Of a stretch of 13,440 bases of DNA, positions 2,623 through 9,890 are shown one piece after another. The stretch's first letter is position 1; every line of letters begins with the position of its first letter. The DNA lies in the NCBI GenBank assembly GCA_947178115.1, contig CAMWXF010000011.1:1-13440 (forward strand), read 5' to 3'. Both the position numbers and the translations under genes were made by a program. Under the pieces are notes generated by a model that made no database searches, was not told where the DNA came from, and was given only the letters and a program-made list of their open reading frames with translations. The DNA is from an uncultured Lachnospiraceae bacterium (GTDB taxonomy: Bacteria; Bacillota; Clostridia; Lachnospirales; Lachnospiraceae).

Positions 2623-3309
2623 ATGGGACAAAGGGTTTTGGTAGTTGATGATGAGAAATTAATCGTGAAGGGTATACGGTTCAGTCTGGAGCAGGACGAT
2701 ATGGAAGTTGACTGCGCATACGACGGGGAGGAAGCGCTTGAGCTGGCGAGACAGAATCAGTATGACATGATCTTACTGGATGTCATGCTTCCTAAGATGA
2801 CCGGTTTTGAAGTTTGTCAGCAGATCAGAGAATTTTCCAACGTCCCAATAGTTATGTTAACCGCAAAAGGGGATGACATGGACAAAATCCTCGGGCTTGA
2901 ATATGGTGCAGACGATTATATCACAAAGCCCTTTAACATTCTGGAGGTCAAAGCGCGCATTAAGGCGATCATACGCAGGACGACCCGTAAGAGCGGCGAT
3001 AAGGAAACGCAAAGAATGGTAGAGAAAGGCGGCATGCGCTTAGACTGCGAGGGCAGAAGGGTCTATATCGAGGATAAAGAGATCAATCTGACAGCCAAGG
3101 AATTTGAAGTATTAGAATTATTGATGAAGAATCCGGGCAAGGTATACAGCAGGGAAAGCCTGTTAAAGCTCGTGTGGGGCAACGATTATCCGGGAGATGT
3201 CAGAACTGTGGACGTACATATCAGGCGGCTGCGAGAGAAGATCGAGATTGTTCCCGGTGAACCTGTTTACGTGCGGACTAAGTGGGGTGTGGGGTATTAC
3301 TTTGCTTAA
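2623..3309 (+). CDS. OmpR/PhoB-family response regulator
   Basis: This is a transcription factor of a two-component system, 228 residues, the usual length. The receiver domain (residues 3-118) has the acidic pair Asp9/Asp10, phospho-acceptor Asp53 ('LLDVMLPKMTG'), Thr80, Tyr99 and Lys102 ('ITKPF'). The C-terminal winged helix (about 130-227) ends with the typical 'VDVHIRRLREKIE' recognition helix and 'RTKWGVGYYF' wing. The partner kinase starts inside its last codons (8-nt overlap), so the pair is translationally coupled. The regulon is unknown. Its location between comEA and comEC suggests, but does not prove, control of competence or envelope genes. Confidence 0.95.
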   Translation: MGQRVLVVDDEKLIVKGIRFSLEQDDMEVDCAYDGEEALELARQNQYDMILLDVMLPKMTGFEVCQQIREFSNVPIVMLTAKGDDMDKILGLEYGADDYITKPFNILEVKARIKAIIRRTTRKSGDKETQRMVEKGGMRLDCEGRRVYIEDKEINLTAKEFEVLELLMKNPGKVYSRESLLKLVWGNDYPGDVRTVDVHIRRLREKIEIVPGEPVYVRTKWGVGYYFA

Positions 3310-4771
3310 GGATAGGATACATAACATTATATTTCTGAGAAGTCTAAAGACAAGGATCTTTCTGATCTTGCTTATCGTCGGGCTGATACCATGTGTCAGT
3401 ATGCGGTATGCGATCTTACGGAATTATGAGCAGCGTGCGGTCAGTGTCAGAACATCGGACATCACCACGCAGCTCAGGATTCTGGCGAATCACCTGATTA
3501 CTTATCATTATCTGCAGGATACCTCTTATGAGGTAATTAATGCTGAGCTTGACCAGCTGTCCAATCTCTATGACGGGCGTGTCATGGTTATTAACAGTGA
3601 TCTGCGCATCGTCAAGGACACTTATGGGATCAGCGAGAACAAGACCATGATTTCGGAGGAAGTGGTACGCTGTATCAAGGGAGAGAGCACCAACAAGTAT
3701 GATAAAGACAACGGATATATCGAGATGACGATCCCGATCACGGAGACGGTCCGCTTTGAAGACGGTCCGCAGGAGACGGTCGAACAAGAGGTCGTGAGAG
3801 GCGTCATGTTAGTCAGCGCTTCCACAGACAGCATCAGGGTGACGATGGATATTTTAAGCCGTAAGGCGCTGCTTGTGGAGATCATTGCGATCATCGTTCT
3901 TTTCGTGTTATCGACTCTGGCAGTGCAGGCGCTGATCAGACCTTTTGAGAAGATTACGGAGGCGCTGAATAAGGCGCAGGAGGGATATACGGACGATCCG
4001 ATTTCCGTTACCGATTGTCTGGAGACAGAACATATCGGAGATGCTTTTAACAGGGTGCTCGGCAGAATGAAGCTTCTGGATGATTCCAGACAGGAGTTTG
4101 TGTCCAACGTGTCCCACGAATTAAAGACGCCCATCACTTCCATGAAAGTGTTGGCGGACTCGCTGATCAGCCAGCGGGATGTGCCGATAGAATTGTATCA
4201 GGAATTTATGACGGACATTGCGAAGGAGATCGAACGTGAGGATAAAATCATAACGGATCTTCTGGCGCTTGTGAAGATGGACAGAACAGCGGCGGATCTG
4301 AATATTGCCGAGGTGGACATCAATGTGCTGGTGGAACTGATTATGAAACGGCTGCGTCCCATTGCGCAGAAGAGGGATGTGGAGCTGGTGTATGAGAGCG
4401 TGCGCCCTGTCACTGCGGCGGTGGACGAGGTGAAGATGACGTTAGTCATTTCCAATCTGGTGGAAAATGCGGTCAAATATAATAAAGAGCACGGCTGGGT
4501 CAAGGTAACGCTGGATGCGGATCACCAGTTTTTTACCATAGAAGTGGCGGATTCCGGTATCGGTATCCCGGCTGAATCGCTGGATCATATTTATGAGAGA
4601 TTCTATCGCGTGGATAAGTCCCGGTCCAGAGAAATTGGCGGAACGGGGCTTGGACTTGCGATTACCAGAAGCGCGGTCCTGATGCACAGGGGTTCCATCA
4701 GGGTGGAAAGTGTAGAAGAAGAGGGAACCGTTTTCAGGGTGAGGATACCTTTGTCCTATATTCCAGTCTAA
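3302..4771 (+). CDS. Membrane sensor histidine kinase (HAMP-HisKA-HATPase_c)
   Basis: The product is about 489 residues. TM1 lies near residues 17-35, followed by an extracellular sensor region of about 150 residues, then TM2 (about 188-210) and HAMP (about 210-262). The HisKA domain carries the phospho-acceptor His272 ('VSHELKTP'). The ATPase domain has an N-box (Asn385/Asn389, 'NLVENAVKYN'), G1 'DSGIGIP' near 417 and G2 'GGTGLGL' near 446. The first in-frame ATG (3401) would remove TM1, so I chose TTG 3302, which overlaps the response regulator stop and gives 'MLKDRIHNII'. Longer in-frame starts run back into the regulator gene and add no recognisable domain. It would phosphorylate the upstream OmpR-type regulator. 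The ligand is not evident; the sensor region resembles the PAS-like (dCache/sCache) folds common in such kinases, but this is a guess. Confidence 0.93.
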   Translation: MLKDRIHNIIFLRSLKTRIFLILLIVGLIPCVSMRYAILRNYEQRAVSVRTSDITTQLRILANHLITYHYLQDTSYEVINAELDQLSNLYDGRVMVINSDLRIVKDTYGISENKTMISEEVVRCIKGESTNKYDKDNGYIEMTIPITETVRFEDGPQETVEQEVVRGVMLVSASTDSIRVTMDILSRKALLVEIIAIIVLFVLSTLAVQALIRPFEKITEALNKAQEGYTDDPISVTDCLETEHIGDAFNRVLGRMKLLDDSRQEFVSNVSHELKTPITSMKVLADSLISQRDVPIELYQEFMTDIAKEIEREDKIITDLLALVKMDRTAADLNIAEVDINVLVELIMKRLRPIAQKRDVELVYESVRPVTAAVDEVKMTLVISNLVENAVKYNKEHGWVKVTLDADHQFFTIEVADSGIGIPAESLDHIYERFYRVDKSRSREIGGTGLGLAITRSAVLMHRGSIRVESVEEEGTVFRVRIPLSYIPV

Positions 4772-4799
4772 AAACGGAAACATAGAAGGAAGTGTGCTT

Positions 4800-5729
4800 A
4801 TGAACAGAATACGGACTGCGGTATGGCTGATTATAGTGTCTGCGCTGCTTTGTGCGGCGTGCGGCAGTGAGTCCCAGCCGGAGAGCGGAAAAGTATATAA
4901 TATATATTATGTAGATAATGATGAAACGAAGACGCTTGCGCGGGAGTATGTCAGCGAGACGGAAGAAAGTGAGAAGCTGCTTGAGGAACTGCTTGGACAG
5001 TTGGAAGAGATTCCTTCCAAATTTGAATATAAGGCACCGCTTGCAAGCGGCTTCGGACTGATCGGTTACACCATAGACAACGGTCAGATTACTATGAATT
5101 TCGATGAACATTATAAAGAGATGGACCGAGTCAGAGAAGTGCTTATGCGGGCGGCGATCGTCAGAACCGTGACGCAGGTATCCGAGATCAATTATGTTTC
5201 CTTTATGGTGCAGGGGGAACCGCTCACGGACAGCAGCGGCAACGCTATCGGTACGATGTCGGCGGATTTGTTTATCAACAATGCCGGCAATGAGATCAAT
5301 GCCTATGAGAAAGTGAATCTGCACCTGTATTTCGCCAACGAGGACGGCAACGGGCTGGTGGAGGAGAATCGCCGGAATGTGGTATACAGCAGCAATATTT
5401 CTCTGGAGAAACTGGTAGTGGAGAAGCTGATCGAGGGCCCCATGGCGGAAGGGGCATATCCTACCGTAAATCCGGAGACGAAGGTCATCAGTGTGACAAT
5501 TAAAGATGGAATATGTTATGTAAACTTAAATGAAGCATTTTTGAATCAGCCGTATAATGTCAGTGCGGATGTGACGATCTATTCCCTTACCAATTCGCTG
5601 GTGGAATTATCCAATGTGAATAAGGTTCAGATCTCGATCAATGGCGAGTCAAATGTTTCATATCGTGAGAATGTTGCTTTAAGCAGTGTTTTCGAGAGAA
5701 ATCTGGATCTGTTGGCAACGCCGGAATGA
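4800..5729 (+). CDS. Lipoprotein with two GerMN domains
   Basis: The 309-residue product has a signal peptide ending in C-A-A-C. The cysteine at -3 makes a slightly atypical lipobox, but lipidation is still likely. Two GerMN repeats follow, about residues 50-155 and 165-295. The second contains the recognisable pattern 'LEKLVVEKLIEGP', 'VISVTIKDGICYVNLNEAF' and 'TIYSLTNSLVELSNVNKVQ'. GerMN is the domain of spore germination protein GerM and of actinobacterial LpqB. It probably binds a wall or envelope component at the outer membrane face. ATG 4800 is preferred over GTG 4794 because the AAGGAAG ribosome site then has normal spacing. The gene lies 28 nt after the kinase and just before comEC, in the same operon. 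A modulator role for the kinase is inferred from the LpqB parallel. Confidence 0.88.
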   Translation: MNRIRTAVWLIIVSALLCAACGSESQPESGKVYNIYYVDNDETKTLAREYVSETEESEKLLEELLGQLEEIPSKFEYKAPLASGFGLIGYTIDNGQITMNFDEHYKEMDRVREVLMRAAIVRTVTQVSEINYVSFMVQGEPLTDSSGNAIGTMSADLFINNAGNEINAYEKVNLHLYFANEDGNGLVEENRRNVVYSSNISLEKLVVEKLIEGPMAEGAYPTVNPETKVISVTIKDGICYVNLNEAFLNQPYNVSADVTIYSLTNSLVELSNVNKVQISINGESNVSYRENVALSSVFERNLDLLATPE

Positions 5730-5758
5730 TGAGGAATTATGAACAGTGGGAGGAAAAC

Positions 5759-8134
5759 ATGATAAATATAAGAAGACCTATGTGCGTGGTCGGGGCAGTC
5801 TATGTGGCGTTAAACGTTGCCATGATGTTAATTACAAACAGGGGCGCGCCGACGTACGGGAATTTGGATAAAGAGCGGGTAACCGTGGCGGGGTACGTGA
5901 CCGGCAAGGAATACCGAGTGAGTCGGAATGATAAAGTACCCGTCGTAACCCTGTCTGAAGCAGTTATTCTTGAGGAAAGTCGGATTTCCGTTCTGGAACA
6001 ATTCTTATCAGATTCTGAGAAGATTCCACAACAAAGATTACATCGTATCTGGAAAGAAAACAAAGAATATTTAAGAAGGAAGGACACCGTCGGAATCGAG
6101 GGAGTCTTATGTTATATGGATGAGGCGGAGTTCCCCGAGATGGGAAGCCTTGTGATCATGCGCGGCAGTTACCGTGCTTTGACACACGCTACAAATCCCG
6201 GAGAGTTCGACGGAGCGGACTATTATAGAATCATGGGGCAGCAGGGCAGAGTCATGGAGTGCGGGCTCTTAGTAAAGAGTACGACCCATGACGGCTTCGG
6301 AGAGTGCATGTATCGGCTCAGAGAATACTGTTCGCTGTTACTGGATGCCTGTTACGGTTCGGAGAACGCCTCTGTTATGAAAGCCATGCTTCTGGGGGAA
6401 AAAGGCACTCTGGATGCGGATATCAAAGAACTCTATCAGCAAAACGGAATTATCCACATATTGGCCATCAGCGGACTTCACTTGTCCGTGATCGGGATGG
6501 GGTGCCATGCATTCCTTAAGAAAATAAGATTGCCGGAAGCGGTTAACATAATATTTGCTATCGGACTGATGTACTGTTACGGCACGATGACCGGAATGGG
6601 AGTTTCCATGCTGCGGGCATATATTATGTTTGCCCTGCATTTGTGCGCGGGACTGATAGGCAGAACCTACGACCTGCTGTGTGCGGTGACTGTGGCGGCA
6701 CTGGTAGTTTTAAACAGGCAGCCGCTGTATTTGCAGCACAGCGGTTTTCTGTTTTCATTCGGCGCCATCTGCGGCATAGGGATTTTCCTGCCTGCCACGA
6801 AGCAGAATCTGTTTGGTCAGGGCAGAGTAGAGCAGGCCGTCTTTGCGGGAATTGCCGTATCCCTCTCCACGCTTCCGGTGTATCTGAACTTCTATTATGA
6901 GTTTCCGCCCTATTCGGTGCTTTTAAATCTCATTGTAATTCCCTGCATGACACTGACGCTTCTGTGCGGTCTGATCAGTCTGGCTGCCGCGGCGTGTTTC
7001 CTGCCCCTCGGCGTGGCGGTCTCATACCCGGTGGCGGCGCTGCTGGGATTCTATAAAAAATGCTGCGATTTCTGTCTGTCGCTTCCGGATAACCGGTGGG
7101 GGACAGGCTGTCCGAAGCCGTGGCAGACAGTGATGTTCCTGCTTATTCTTGCGGGACTGTGTGTCGGAAACAGATGGCTGCCGAAGCTGTATTTCTGGCA
7201 GGGTGTGCTTTGTGCGCTTCTGGTGCTGACGATCAGACTGCCCTACGGCCTGCAGATCACCATGGTGGATGTTGGGCAGGGAGACTGCATATATCTGGCG
7301 GAGGACAGCGGCATGCATATGCTGATAGACGGCGGAAGTTCTGACCAGAGTGATGTGGCAGAATATCAGATTATGCCGTTCCTGAAACATGAGGGCGCTA
7401 CCTGTCTGGACGCCGTGGTGGTCACCCATCCGGATAGCGATCATATATGCGGCATCCGTGGGCTGCTGGAGGAGGCAGGCACAGGCGGCATATCCATCAG
7501 AGCCCTGTACTTGCCCGATGTGGGAGAACGGGGCAGGACGGAAGAATACTGCAAGCTGGAAAAGGAGGCAGAAGCGGCAGACGTTCCGGTACGCTATATC
7601 GGCGCAGGAGATATTTTACAATGCGGAAAAGTTATGTTAACCTGTCTGCATCCTGAGAAAGGATGGAATACCACAGATACGAATGCTTATTCTACAGTGC
7701 TGTACTTGACCTACGGGGATTTCACCGCGCTTTTCACAGGAGATTTGGAAGGAGAAGGAGAGCGGAAGGTGGTGGATTTGATAAGAACGGGGCAAAACAG
7801 TGGAAAAAATATAATCGGAGAAAATGATTCCGGACAGGACGACATAGGAGTGGAGAAGCCGGTAGCGGATGTGAATATACATGATATTACACTGCTGAAA
7901 GTGGCCCACCACGGCTCCGGGAATTCTACCGGGGAGGATTTCCTGCAGGCGGTAAATCCTAAAGTCGCCCTGATCTCGGCAGGGCGAAACAACAGATACG
8001 GACATCCTCACGAAGAACTGCTGGATAGGCTGCGAAACTGCGGATGCCTGATCTACCGAACTCAGGAGAGCGGCGCAGTGACCGTGCGGGTACGAGGCGG
8101 TAAGGTGCGGGTGAGCGGGTATCTGGAAGAGTAG
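5759..8134 (+). CDS. comEC: DNA internalisation channel ComEC/Rec2
   Basis: This is the polytopic membrane channel that carries single-stranded transforming DNA into the cytoplasm; 791 residues, normal for the family. The N-terminal DUF4131-type region is followed by the competence domain with the signature 'LAISGLHLSVIGMG' near residue 236 and many membrane helices. The C-terminal metallo-beta-lactamase-like domain has 'MVDVGQGD', 'THPDSDH' (His557, Asp561, His562), 'FTGDLEGEGE', 'VAHHGSGNST' and a late 'GHPHEELL'. This domain is thought to degrade the non-transported strand. About 35 polar residues are inserted between the last 'TGDL' and 'HHGS' motifs. ATG 5759 has a textbook GGGAGG site 5 nt upstream. 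An in-frame ATG at 5726 overlaps the previous stop as ATGA and would add 11 residues. Confidence 0.95.
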   Translation: MINIRRPMCVVGAVYVALNVAMMLITNRGAPTYGNLDKERVTVAGYVTGKEYRVSRNDKVPVVTLSEAVILEESRISVLEQFLSDSEKIPQQRLHRIWKENKEYLRRKDTVGIEGVLCYMDEAEFPEMGSLVIMRGSYRALTHATNPGEFDGADYYRIMGQQGRVMECGLLVKSTTHDGFGECMYRLREYCSLLLDACYGSENASVMKAMLLGEKGTLDADIKELYQQNGIIHILAISGLHLSVIGMGCHAFLKKIRLPEAVNIIFAIGLMYCYGTMTGMGVSMLRAYIMFALHLCAGLIGRTYDLLCAVTVAALVVLNRQPLYLQHSGFLFSFGAICGIGIFLPATKQNLFGQGRVEQAVFAGIAVSLSTLPVYLNFYYEFPPYSVLLNLIVIPCMTLTLLCGLISLAAAACFLPLGVAVSYPVAALLGFYKKCCDFCLSLPDNRWGTGCPKPWQTVMFLLILAGLCVGNRWLPKLYFWQGVLCALLVLTIRLPYGLQITMVDVGQGDCIYLAEDSGMHMLIDGGSSDQSDVAEYQIMPFLKHEGATCLDAVVVTHPDSDHICGIRGLLEEAGTGGISIRALYLPDVGERGRTEEYCKLEKEAEAADVPVRYIGAGDILQCGKVMLTCLHPEKGWNTTDTNAYSTVLYLTYGDFTALFTGDLEGEGERKVVDLIRTGQNSGKNIIGENDSGQDDIGVEKPVADVNIHDITLLKVAHHGSGNSTGEDFLQAVNPKVALISAGRNNRYGHPHEELLDRLRNCGCLIYRTQESGAVTVRVRGGKVRVSGYLEE

Positions 8135-8171: not shown

Positions 8172-8339
8172 AAACCGGACGCGCCGGACAGTATGTAGTT
8201 GTCCTAAGGACGCGCTTCCGCTCGGTTCCAAACGCAACGGTACTAAGCTCGAAAGTTGCGTTGCAACTTTAAACCTCGCTAAGTGCCGGCGTTTTCCAAC
8301 GGTCCTAAGGACAACTACATACTATCCGACGCTGTGTAT
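8172..8339 (+). repeat. Large hairpin repeat element, copy 1
   Basis: This is a 168-nt imperfect palindrome. The outer stem pairs 8181-8211 with 8302-8332 over 31 positions with only a few wobbles or mismatches. An inner stem pairs 8230-8235 with 8289-8294 (AAACGC/GCGTTT) and 8238-8244 with 8282-8288. The apex 8252-8259/8263-8270 is a perfect 8-bp stem (AAAGTTGC/GCAACTTT) with a 3-nt loop. It begins with AAACCGGACGCGC, which recurs inverted at the far end of copy 2. The apex flanks CTAAGCTCG and CCTCGCTAAGTGC are identical in copy 2. It could be a structured RNA, a REP/MITE-like element or a DNA hairpin. I do not recognise a named family. Confidence 0.85.
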
Positions 8340-8381
8340 CGAAAAAATAATAGCATATCGATATTAGATTAGCCATAGCCA

Positions 8382-8549
8382 ATACCCAGCGCAGAGGGAG
8401 GGCAATATCTTAAGAAGCCCCTAGAACAGCGCCAGCACTTAGCGAGGTCATGAGTTGCATTGCAACTCACGAGCTTAGTGTCTGCTGCGCTGTGAAAGGA
8501 GCGAGAGCGCGGCTTCGTAGATATTGCCCTCCTTCTGCGCGTCCGGTTT
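8382..8549 (-). repeat. Large hairpin repeat element, copy 2 (inverted)
   Basis: This is the same architecture as copy 1, on the opposite strand and of equal length. The outer stem pairs 8389-8419 with 8511-8540. The inner stem pairs 8426-8432 with 8487-8493 (ACAGCGC/GCGCTGT). The apex TGAGTTGC/GCAACTCA has a 3-nt loop. The outer arm sequence is mostly different from copy 1, yet it still pairs with itself. The apex flanks (8435-8447 and 8470-8478) match copy 1 exactly in reverse complement. The outer end CGCGTCCGGTTT is the inverse of the start of copy 1. The two copies face each other across a 42-nt AT-rich spacer. Confidence 0.85.
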
Positions 8550-8609: not shown

Positions 8610-8637
8610 ATGACATTTACAAAGAGTATGATATAAT
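8610..8637 (+). promoter_or_regulatory. Promoter for the receiver-alarmone synthetase gene
   Basis: ATGACA (8610-8615), 16 nt, then TATAAT (8632-8637) preceded by TG at -14/-15, making an extended -10. This is a strong housekeeping-sigma-type promoter by sequence. Transcription would start near 8644 and give a leader of about 150 nt before the ATG at 8793. Confidence 0.7.
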
Positions 8638-8643
8638 ATACGC

Positions 8644-8792
8644 GATATCAATAAGCCGTGCCGCGAAGCAATATGCAAAGTGAATGCCTTCATTCATCTT
8701 TGACAGAGTGCGGAATGATAGTGCGAAGCCCACAAGCGATCCTCAGGCGGGTATGCACAGCGGAAGTTATATATTGTACTAAAGGGGAAAAC
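8644..8792 (+). promoter_or_regulatory. Long 5' leader of the alarmone synthetase gene
   Basis: About 150 nt lie between the predicted start site and ATG 8793. It contains a clean hairpin, TGAATG (8681-8686), loop CCTT, CATTCA (8691-8696). The coding frame is open through the leader back to GTG 8658, so a longer N-terminus is possible in principle. The AGGGG site and the canonical receiver start argue for 8793. No known riboswitch class is recognised. Confidence 0.4.
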
Positions 8793-9890
8793 ATGAGAAG
8801 GGTATTGGTAGTAGACGATGCGGAAATCAACCGCGAAGTATTAAGTAATATTTTAGCAGACGATTACGCAGTTGATAAGGCGGCAGACGGGGAAGAGGCG
8901 CTTGATATATTACAGAGGAACGGCACCGATACGGCGGCAATTCTTCTGGATCTGTATATGCCTAAGATGGATGGCTTTGCAGTGCTTACTGTACTGAAAG
9001 ATAAAGGCTGGCTGCAGAAGCTCCCTGTGCTGATCATAACCAGTGAACCCGCTACGGAGATCGAGAGCCGCTGTCTTGAAATGGGAGCCAGCGATTTTAT
9101 TCATAAGCCTTTTGAGGCATCTGTTGTCAGAAACAGAGTCCGTAATGTGACGGAACTGTTTGTCTGTAAGAACAAGCTGGAACAGAAGGTGGAAGAGCAG
9201 GAGGAAGTGCTTAAGAAGCAGTACCGGATTATAGAGATGCAGGCGGAGAAACTGCGGGAGTCTGGGCCTTTTAACAGGCTGATGATGGAGTACCGGTCCG
9301 CGATCATGGAAGTGGAGACGAGGCTTAAGATACTCAACGAAGAATTTTCCCAAGTGTATAACAGGAATCCTTTTGAATCCATCAAGAGCCGTCTGAAATC
9401 GCCCACAAGCATCTACGAGAAGCTGGCGCTTAAGGGATATCCGGTGACGGTGGAGAGTATCAGAGAACATCTGACGGATGTGGCGGGACTGCGGGTAATC
9501 TGTTCTTTTCCGGACGATATCTACCGACTGGCGGATCTGCTCATCAAGCAGGATGAATTCATTTTGCTGCGCAAGAAAGATTATATTCGCAATCCTAAGA
9601 GTAACGGTTATAGGAGTCTGCACCTCATTCTGGACGTGCCGATCTTTTTATCGAATGAAAAGAAGTACGTGAAGACGGAAGTGCAGTTCCGCACGATTGC
9701 CATGGATTTCTGGGCGAGTCTGGAGCATAAGCTGAAATATAAAAAAGATGTGGCAAATACGGAGGAGATCGAGGGACAGCTAAGAGCGTGTGCAGATTCG
9801 ATTGAGATGTTGGATTATCAGATGCAGGATATCCGCAATAAGATTGACAGGTCCAACCCGTCTGATATACAGGTCAGGGGTAATGCCTGA
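8793..9890 (+). CDS. Receiver domain fused to RelQ-like (p)ppGpp synthetase
   Basis: The 365-residue product has three parts. (a) A CheY-like receiver, residues 3-118, with Asp8/Asp9, phospho-acceptor Asp53 ('LLDLYMPKMDG'), Thr83 and Lys105 ('IHKPF'). (b) A long Glu/Gln/Lys-rich coiled coil, about 121-190. (c) A RelA/SpoT-type synthetase domain, about 195-320. The last has 'RLKSPTSIYEKL' (substrate-binding Arg/Lys), 'DVAGLRVIC' with the likely Mg ligand Asp229, the G-loop 'DYIRNPKSNGYRSLH' with the guanine-stacking Tyr273, and 'EVQFRTIAMDFWASLEHKL' with Glu296. It lacks a hydrolase domain and the TGS/ACT regions of long Rel, so it is a small alarmone synthetase under a receiver. It would transfer pyrophosphate from ATP to GDP/GTP in the cytoplasm, controlled by phosphorylation. 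ATG 8793 has an AGGGG site. No kinase gene is adjacent. Confidence 0.92.
   Translation: MRRVLVVDDAEINREVLSNILADDYAVDKAADGEEALDILQRNGTDTAAILLDLYMPKMDGFAVLTVLKDKGWLQKLPVLIITSEPATEIESRCLEMGASDFIHKPFEASVVRNRVRNVTELFVCKNKLEQKVEEQEEVLKKQYRIIEMQAEKLRESGPFNRLMMEYRSAIMEVETRLKILNEEFSQVYNRNPFESIKSRLKSPTSIYEKLALKGYPVTVESIREHLTDVAGLRVICSFPDDIYRLADLLIKQDEFILLRKKDYIRNPKSNGYRSLHLILDVPIFLSNEKKYVKTEVQFRTIAMDFWASLEHKLKYKKDVANTEEIEGQLRACADSIEMLDYQMQDIRNKIDRSNPSDIQVRGNA

Follow-up and report, generated by a model that had tools for sequence, protein, structure and literature searches.

Small alarmone synthetases are set by transcription and, in the case of RelQ, by pppGpp. In the sections of Steinchen et al. (2018; PMC5794853) covered here, short RSH proteins are defined by a synthetase domain alone, and a proline of the G-loop (Pro146 in SaRelP) is what distinguishes RelP from RelQ; it keeps the G-loop ordered and accompanies a lack of pppGpp stimulation: pppGpp gives no stimulation of Staphylococcus aureus RelP, whereas RelQ, which is without the proline, is stimulated. 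Two-component input to a small synthetase has been described for Bacillus subtilis sasA, where it acts at the promoter through WalR (PMC6853874, in the part covered). The Rec-GGDEF diguanylate cyclases (DgcR, WspR, and PleD) combine a receiver, a coiled coil and a nucleotide-messenger enzyme, and their linkers fall into length classes separated by sevens. According to Teixeira et al. (2021; PMC8041772), DgcR is activated by binding of a phosphate mimic: the alpha4-beta5-alpha5 receiver dimer (D104-R118) repacks, the coil changes register and the output is set free.

The window analyzed here, meaning the whole stretch of 13,440 nucleotides, comes from contig C11 of a 2.13-Mb bin (64% complete, 371 contigs) of an uncultured Lachnospiraceae bacterium (GCA_947178115.1). 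It carries a gene whose 365-aa product holds, by Pfam and alignment, a receiver, then a coil, then an alarmone synthetase. Its features are the following:

8793..9890, plus strand: receiver-coil-RelP fusion gene (open ORF, 365 aa; Pfam; 45 distinct loci aligned).
8793..9143, plus strand: receiver domain, residues 1-117 (Pfam 4-116; conserved receiver residues).
8949-8951, plus strand: codon of Asp53 of the receiver.
9144..9266, plus strand: inter-domain coil, residues 118-158 (heptad core; model helix 109-189; match to a REC-HD-GYP coil).
9267..9854, plus strand: RelP-type synthetase domain, residues 159-354 (Pfam; PDB sequence and structure matches).
9588..9623, plus strand: G-loop region RNPKSNGYRSLH, residues 266-277, with the RelP-type Pro268 and Tyr273 (sequence; PMC5794853, in part).
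9429..9431, plus strand: codon of Leu213, at the place of the ATP-phosphate contact Arg91 of SaRelP (alignment of 45).
8781..8787, plus strand: AAAGGGG, a likely ribosome-binding site before the ATG of the fusion (read from the sequence).
8610..8637, plus strand: promoter-like site matching 11 of 12 positions, with TG before the second hexamer (weak evidence).

The Pfam search of the fusion protein returned Response_reg at 4-116 (E 5e-24) and RelA_SpoT at 199-319 (E 3.6e-32) and no third family at E <= 0.001, which bears out the initial annotation in that neither a DNA-binding nor a hydrolase domain was found at this threshold; the receiver at 4-116 separates the protein from short RSH enzymes as defined above. 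Translation and alignment also place D8, D9, D53, T83, and K105 of the receiver and D229, Y273, and E296 of the synthetase where that annotation had named them. Regarding the promoter-like site, the pattern search found 5 sites against a mean of 3.5 in shuffled sequences; its 28 letters are identical in L073, L074, L075, L076, and L095, and the pattern is without a match in the other 15 loci tested.

The receiver-synthetase fusion is real and is encoded by 45 distinct loci, a set that leaves out eleven loci of named genomes lying on the same contigs as loci of the G-numbered genomes. Full-query matches were found in at least 24 of the 77 species genomes of the genus, at least 7 of 200 genomes of the family sample, at least 2 of 295 of the order sample (both in the same family) and at least 1 of 398 of the phylum sample (the window itself); these counts are lower bounds because the best 5-26 candidates per genome were scored and the window's own bin is incomplete. 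Among the best candidates scored, no full-query match was found in 53 of the 77 genus genomes. The search of named genomes, which reaches close relatives only, gave 26 full-length loci among 56 matches, the other 30 matching receivers only or nearly so; by title, the 26 comprise 19 Lachnospiraceae bacterium, two Hungatella, one Petralouisia muris, and one each of Clostridiaceae, Clostridium, Eubacterium, and Peptostreptococcaceae. In plasmids and phages no place covered 80% of the query, and the matches listed (8 of 32 and 8 of 34 records) all concerned the synthetase part. Followed across relatives, as had been proposed, the domain combination is patchy in Lachnospiraceae, the one family in which it was found within the genome samples searched.

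Two apparent variants were set aside. A Sebaldella match (L117, residues 1-220 matched) encodes a regulator of 227 aa that has no synthetase and looks OmpR-like in sequence, and the extra domain suggested by long tblastn spans at L100, L112, and L114 disappears on inspection of the ORFs, whose lengths of 356, 370, and 375 aa are near the usual one. Separately, a single 483-aa frame in one genome of the family sample (G006) carries RelA_SpoT and, after it, a GDSL lipase-like domain (L071 1149-2600, plus strand).

The synthetase had been described as RelQ-like, and this label has to be replaced: judged from sequence, the domain is of the RelP type. The fusion protein scored 183.8 bits against SaRelP (6ewz) versus 124 bits against BsRelQ (5dec) among PDB sequences, the first structure match of its predicted model was 6ewz (TM 0.87 by target length, 41% identity) versus TM 0.82-0.86 by target length and 29-34% identity for the RelQ chains 5dec and 5ded, and the G-loop proline, Pro268, is present in 45 of 45 aligned fusions. 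Against a RelP assignment, the sole alarmone-synthetase equivalog among the best 25 NCBIfam rows was YjbM (RelQ), the top row, at 160.8 bits, which is half its cut-off of 320; no RelP model was among those rows. Two free synthetases of the genus that were tested scored best with RelP or YwaC, not RelQ. Compared with RelP / SAS2 / YwaC (SasA) enzymes (PDB 6ewz, 6fgj, 6fgk), the fusion shares the best sequence and structure match, the G-loop proline and the catalytic residues checked, whereas it adds a receiver and a coil in front and has Leu213 for SaRelP Arg91; with RelQ / SAS1 / YjbM it shares the fold and catalytic residues, but scores lower and differs by the proline. The fusion is predicted to work like a RelP without being a single-domain SAS. 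The reassignment changes the argument about control, because S. aureus RelP is the enzyme that pppGpp does not stimulate (PMC5794853, in part).

The claim that substrate and metal motifs are kept held for the catalytic residues checked and failed at one place. Among the ATP and metal contacts of SaRelP reported in the covered sections of PMC5794853 (R78, K80, S84, K88, R91, D107, R112, E174, and H190), eight of nine are kept in the window protein, and R91 is replaced by Leu213. Across the 45 rows position 213 reads R in 33, L in 7, K in 3, and Y in 2, with Leu in the window's own clade and Lys or Tyr in other fusions. In close homologues the other catalytic residues checked are retained: R200, K202, S206, K210, D229, P268, Y273, E296, and H312 are present in 45 of 45 fusions and R234 in 43, the remaining two rows reading X there (such rows were counted apart).

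The receiver is complete in the fusion protein, with its acidic pair, phospho-Asp, Thr/Ser, and Lys: D8, D9, and D53 are invariant (45 of 45), position 83 is Thr or Ser in all rows, and K105 is kept in 44, being Arg in L066. Asp101 and Arg115 are invariant too (45 of 45) and fall, when mapped by the offset from DgcR Asp56 to Asp53, at the places of DgcR D104 and R118, which predicts the contact by sequence only; the D-R dimer pair is 14 residues apart in both proteins. In the coil, the heptad core L122 K126 L129 V133 Q136 L140 Q143 I147 Q150 L154, in 4-3 spacing, holds one residue per position in 42-45 of the 45 rows, and mean hydrophobicity over 113-158 has its strongest period at 3.5 among the periods tried. 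The only indels within residues 4-352 are 7-residue coil deletions in three of the 45 rows (L078, and L059 with L090), and L078 and L059/L090 stand in different clades of the synthetase tree. The predicted monomer model (mean pLDDT 82.6; pTM 0.53) has one helix over 109-189, from receiver alpha5 through RelP alpha1, and is least sure at 141-160, where pLDDT is 66-73. Because RelP alpha1 carries the medial tetramer interface (PMC5794853, in part), the coil would enter the enzyme at an assembly contact. The coil of about 70 residues in the initial annotation corresponds to an inter-domain coil of about 40 (118-158), and 70-80 is reached only by counting receiver alpha5 and RelP alpha1.

By its sequence the fusion thus resembles the register-switch enzymes of the DgcR kind and is not a member of them, since the fold and product of its output are unrelated (RelA_SpoT) and a tetrameric RelP would replace the GGDEF dimer. 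The S-helix is similar in its length of about 40 residues; its ERT signature in the central heptad (PMC1592074) is absent from the window protein sequence.

Mean pairwise identity among the 45 fusions was 0.62 for the receiver, 0.64 for the coil, and 0.80 for the synthetase. In four close pairs the synthetase had a dN/dS of 0.01-0.07 and the receiver one of 0.17-0.34; the coil gave 0 to 0.25 in three of them and, in the fourth, where changes are very few, 0.98. Two pairs further apart were partly saturated. The synthetase parts of the 45 fusions formed one clade (SH-aLRT 99) against 51 free rows and two references, in a quick-search tree with long branches flagged and some free rows representing the same protein twice. 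The free synthetase of the window's own genome is 52% identical to the synthetase part; up to 65% is seen with free RelPs from other families of the order. The receiver tree explains the fusions by one change, but the branch uniting them has support 9; the evidence for a single origin is therefore the synthetase tree, by which the fusion appears to have arisen once and to be conserved where present.

Taken as one piece, receiver and coil have their closest matches among the REC-HD-GYP proteins of the genus, with 47-48% identity across residues 3-157. In single-subject BLAST the coil 113-158 alone matched those of L192 (53%, E 3e-15), L193 (51%, E 7e-15), and L196 (36%, 1.6e-7), with E 0.33 for a fourth REC-HD-GYP protein (L089), versus E 0.06, 0.02, 0.02, and no match for four free RelPs. 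The coil goes with the REC-HD-GYP proteins, not the free RelPs, which places the join near residue 158, just before the RelP domain. These response regulators (e.g., L070 9578-10687, the same protein as L192, with Pfam Response_reg and HD) share receiver and coil with the fusion as a matched unit, whereas their output is HD-type (HD-GYP by motif) and includes no synthetase. This HD-GYP output presumably serves c-di-GMP breakdown.

In the window the fusion lies between comEC and holA. In four fusion-less species, which give no match to the fusion, these genes lie 41 (L206), 74 (L210), 148 (L209), and 302 bp (L212) from each other; in the fusion-less set, 5 of 9 loci were without comEC inside the flank and 1 of 10 genomes without a holA match. 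Neighbor counts refer to 44 of the 45 loci, L080 having been missed by the simple gene caller: holA directly follows the fusion in 11 and is elsewhere or further off in the rest. An amylase-family gene directly follows it in 5 of 44 loci (L087 7203-9389, minus strand, and kin in L059, L086, L089, and L090; Alpha-amylase and CBM_48 by Pfam on L059). Between comEC and the fusion, the 378 bp of window 8172-8549 end in perfect inverted repeats of 13 bp, contain nested palindromes that are imperfect, and look like a small non-coding mobile element; kin are found at the same place in sibling loci, with short partial matches in L084 and L062.

The initial annotation reported no adjacent kinase. This stands for the window, where no kinase directly adjoins the fusion and the kinase ORF 3197-4771 lies about 4 kb upstream with an OmpR-type regulator of its own (2623-3309). 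That pair (2623-4771) is upstream of a Germane-domain gene (4794-5729) and comEC (5726-8134), and a kinase of this type precedes comEC in other loci of the genus. In relatives the statement does not hold throughout: by BLAST similarity, a kinase frame on the same strand immediately precedes the fusion in 3 of the 39 loci with an upstream neighbor in view, with gaps of 46 (L087), 8 (L089), and 376 (L105), and one is second downstream in L100, L112, and L114. Hybrid-kinase pairs occur in two loci, L087 and L089, in the order REC-HD-GYP, HK-REC-Hpt, HK-REC-DegV, fusion, amylase-family gene (domains come from Pfam for L087's Hpt protein and L089's DegV protein, and counterparts were assigned by BLAST). 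The proposed gene-neighbor analysis, then, gives kinase linkage in a minority of loci and varying neighbors.

The DegV protein of L089 (10555-13254, minus strand) is a hybrid histidine kinase with HisKA, HATPase, receiver, and C-terminal DegV by Pfam, and in many genomes of the genus an HK-REC-Hpt gene accompanies HK-REC-DegV as its pair. L177 has the same gene row minus the fusion, with 25 bp from HK-REC-DegV to the amylase-family gene. In the window's own genome the kinase row is on contig C63, which ends inside HK-REC-DegV (G000:C63; L172 5865-8041). As an obligate partner, however, the HK-REC-Hpt / HK-REC-DegV pair was ruled out: the fusion genomes G241, G250, G259, G260, G272, and G274 gave no match to either kinase at E <= 1e-120, and many fusion-less genomes carry both. 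The same six are the only ones of the 77 genus genomes without an HK-REC-DegV match at this threshold, and all have the fusion; their absence of HK-REC-DegV may reflect one loss, because their fusions form one tight tree group.

Taken together, these results suggest that the fusion is probably a (p)ppGpp synthetase whose activity a histidine kinase or phosphorelay controls directly, with the receiver gating a RelP-type enzyme; we infer the kinase, the control by phosphorylation and its sign. The phosphate on Asp53 would come from a kinase, probably a hybrid one with Hpt; the receivers would then dimerize through their alpha4-beta5-alpha5 faces (Asp101-Arg115) and move the coil, which starts near residue 118, into another register, as in DgcR. 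Running straight into RelP helix alpha1, the medial tetramer interface, the coil could alter assembly or active-site geometry. The unphosphorylated receiver would most likely hold synthesis down and phosphorylation would release it, a brake suggested by the ordered G-loop and absent pppGpp stimulation of RelP-type enzymes. Product or zinc inhibition of RelP has reportedly been described by a second group, which would weaken the argument that no other brake exists. The product would be removed by a co-resident long Rel: each of the 8 genus genomes searched, of which 6 carry the fusion, has a 774-794-aa frame of long-Rel size, in which the synthetase domain was seen, and at least one further small frame.

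The proposal that a receiver places alarmone synthesis under a histidine kinase is the best fit and partly supported, with control at the level of the enzyme: the invariant receiver Asp, low dN/dS in both domains, heptad-sized indels, the REC-HD-GYP match and the upstream kinase in 3 of 39 loci speak for it, and its RelQ-like element was lost. It is weakened by Leu213 at the place of SaRelP Arg91, by the receiver being less conserved than the synthetase and carrying Arg for Lys105 in L066, by the single coil dN/dS of 0.98 (few changes), and by a model that is a monomer of pTM 0.53, least sure at 141-160. It is weakened as well by the varying neighbors and the fusion missing among best candidates of 53 of 77 genus genomes, by the L087/L089 kinase pair being unmatched in six fusion genomes and present in many fusion-less ones, and by the support of 9 for the branch uniting fusion receivers.

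Among the alternatives, a phosphorylation signal of opposite sign, in which the unphosphorylated protein is active and phosphorylation turns (p)ppGpp synthesis off, is unlikely. The same conserved residues would serve both ways and the sequence does not fix the sign, but a RelP-type enzyme free of pppGpp control and on by default would presumably be costly, and DgcR is activated by its phosphate mimic (PMC8041772, in part). Distinctly unlikely is a receiver acting as a phosphate-independent pairing module that sets the oligomeric state only, under transcriptional control as known for B. subtilis sasA through WalR (PMC6853874, in part). Although the faster change of the receiver and the varied neighbors would suit such a module, it sits poorly with Asp8, Asp9, Asp53, and Thr/Ser83 in 45 of 45 fusions, Lys105 in 44, and a receiver dN/dS of 0.17-0.34.

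The replacement of an ATP-contacting Arg by Leu213 in the window's own clade raises the question of whether the synthetase part is still an enzyme or now serves a regulator by sensing nucleotides or binding a partner. We consider this loss of activity very unlikely, given that the rest of the catalytic residues checked are unchanged wherever the rows can be read, the G-loop proline is universal, synthetase dN/dS is as low as 0.01-0.07, and other fusions carry Lys or Tyr at 213. Nor does the incomplete bin, fragmented into 371 contigs, make an assembly or binning chimera of two genes credible; its probability is vanishingly small, because the fusion recurs at 45 distinct loci in varied contexts, with synthetase parts in one clade, and includes records titled as strains, namely Petralouisia muris NM01_1-7b (L112) and Lachnospiraceae bacterium MD308 (L107).

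Returning to receiver-gated synthesis, a wider version is held tentatively, at somewhat below an even chance: a c-di-GMP-type response regulator would have been rewired into an alarmone response regulator, with a phosphorelay turning on (p)ppGpp production by acting on the enzyme itself; in the species whose fusion comes after REC-HD-GYP, HK-REC-Hpt, and HK-REC-DegV genes, c-di-GMP breakdown and (p)ppGpp synthesis would be driven jointly by one relay.

Among the open-licence PMC papers that the literature searches listed, no title or abstract dealt with a receiver-synthetase fusion. The words 'receiver' and 'two-component' are absent from the portion of Atkinson et al. (2011; PMC3153485) covered, as are 'SpoT', 'ppGpp', and 'alarmone' from that of a two-component survey (PMC4558063), while the covered text of PMC6416229 mentions the two domains apart. 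Automatic annotation may already list this architecture. Enzyme-output response regulators and RelP are both known, and the new part is their combination together with its likely direct control. If this is true, a sensed signal would set alarmone production directly and fast, not through gene expression, in the Lachnospiraceae that carry the fusion. The fusion would also test whether the coil-register switch of c-di-GMP enzymes works on an unrelated fold, and may offer a phosphorylation-controlled source of (p)ppGpp for research.
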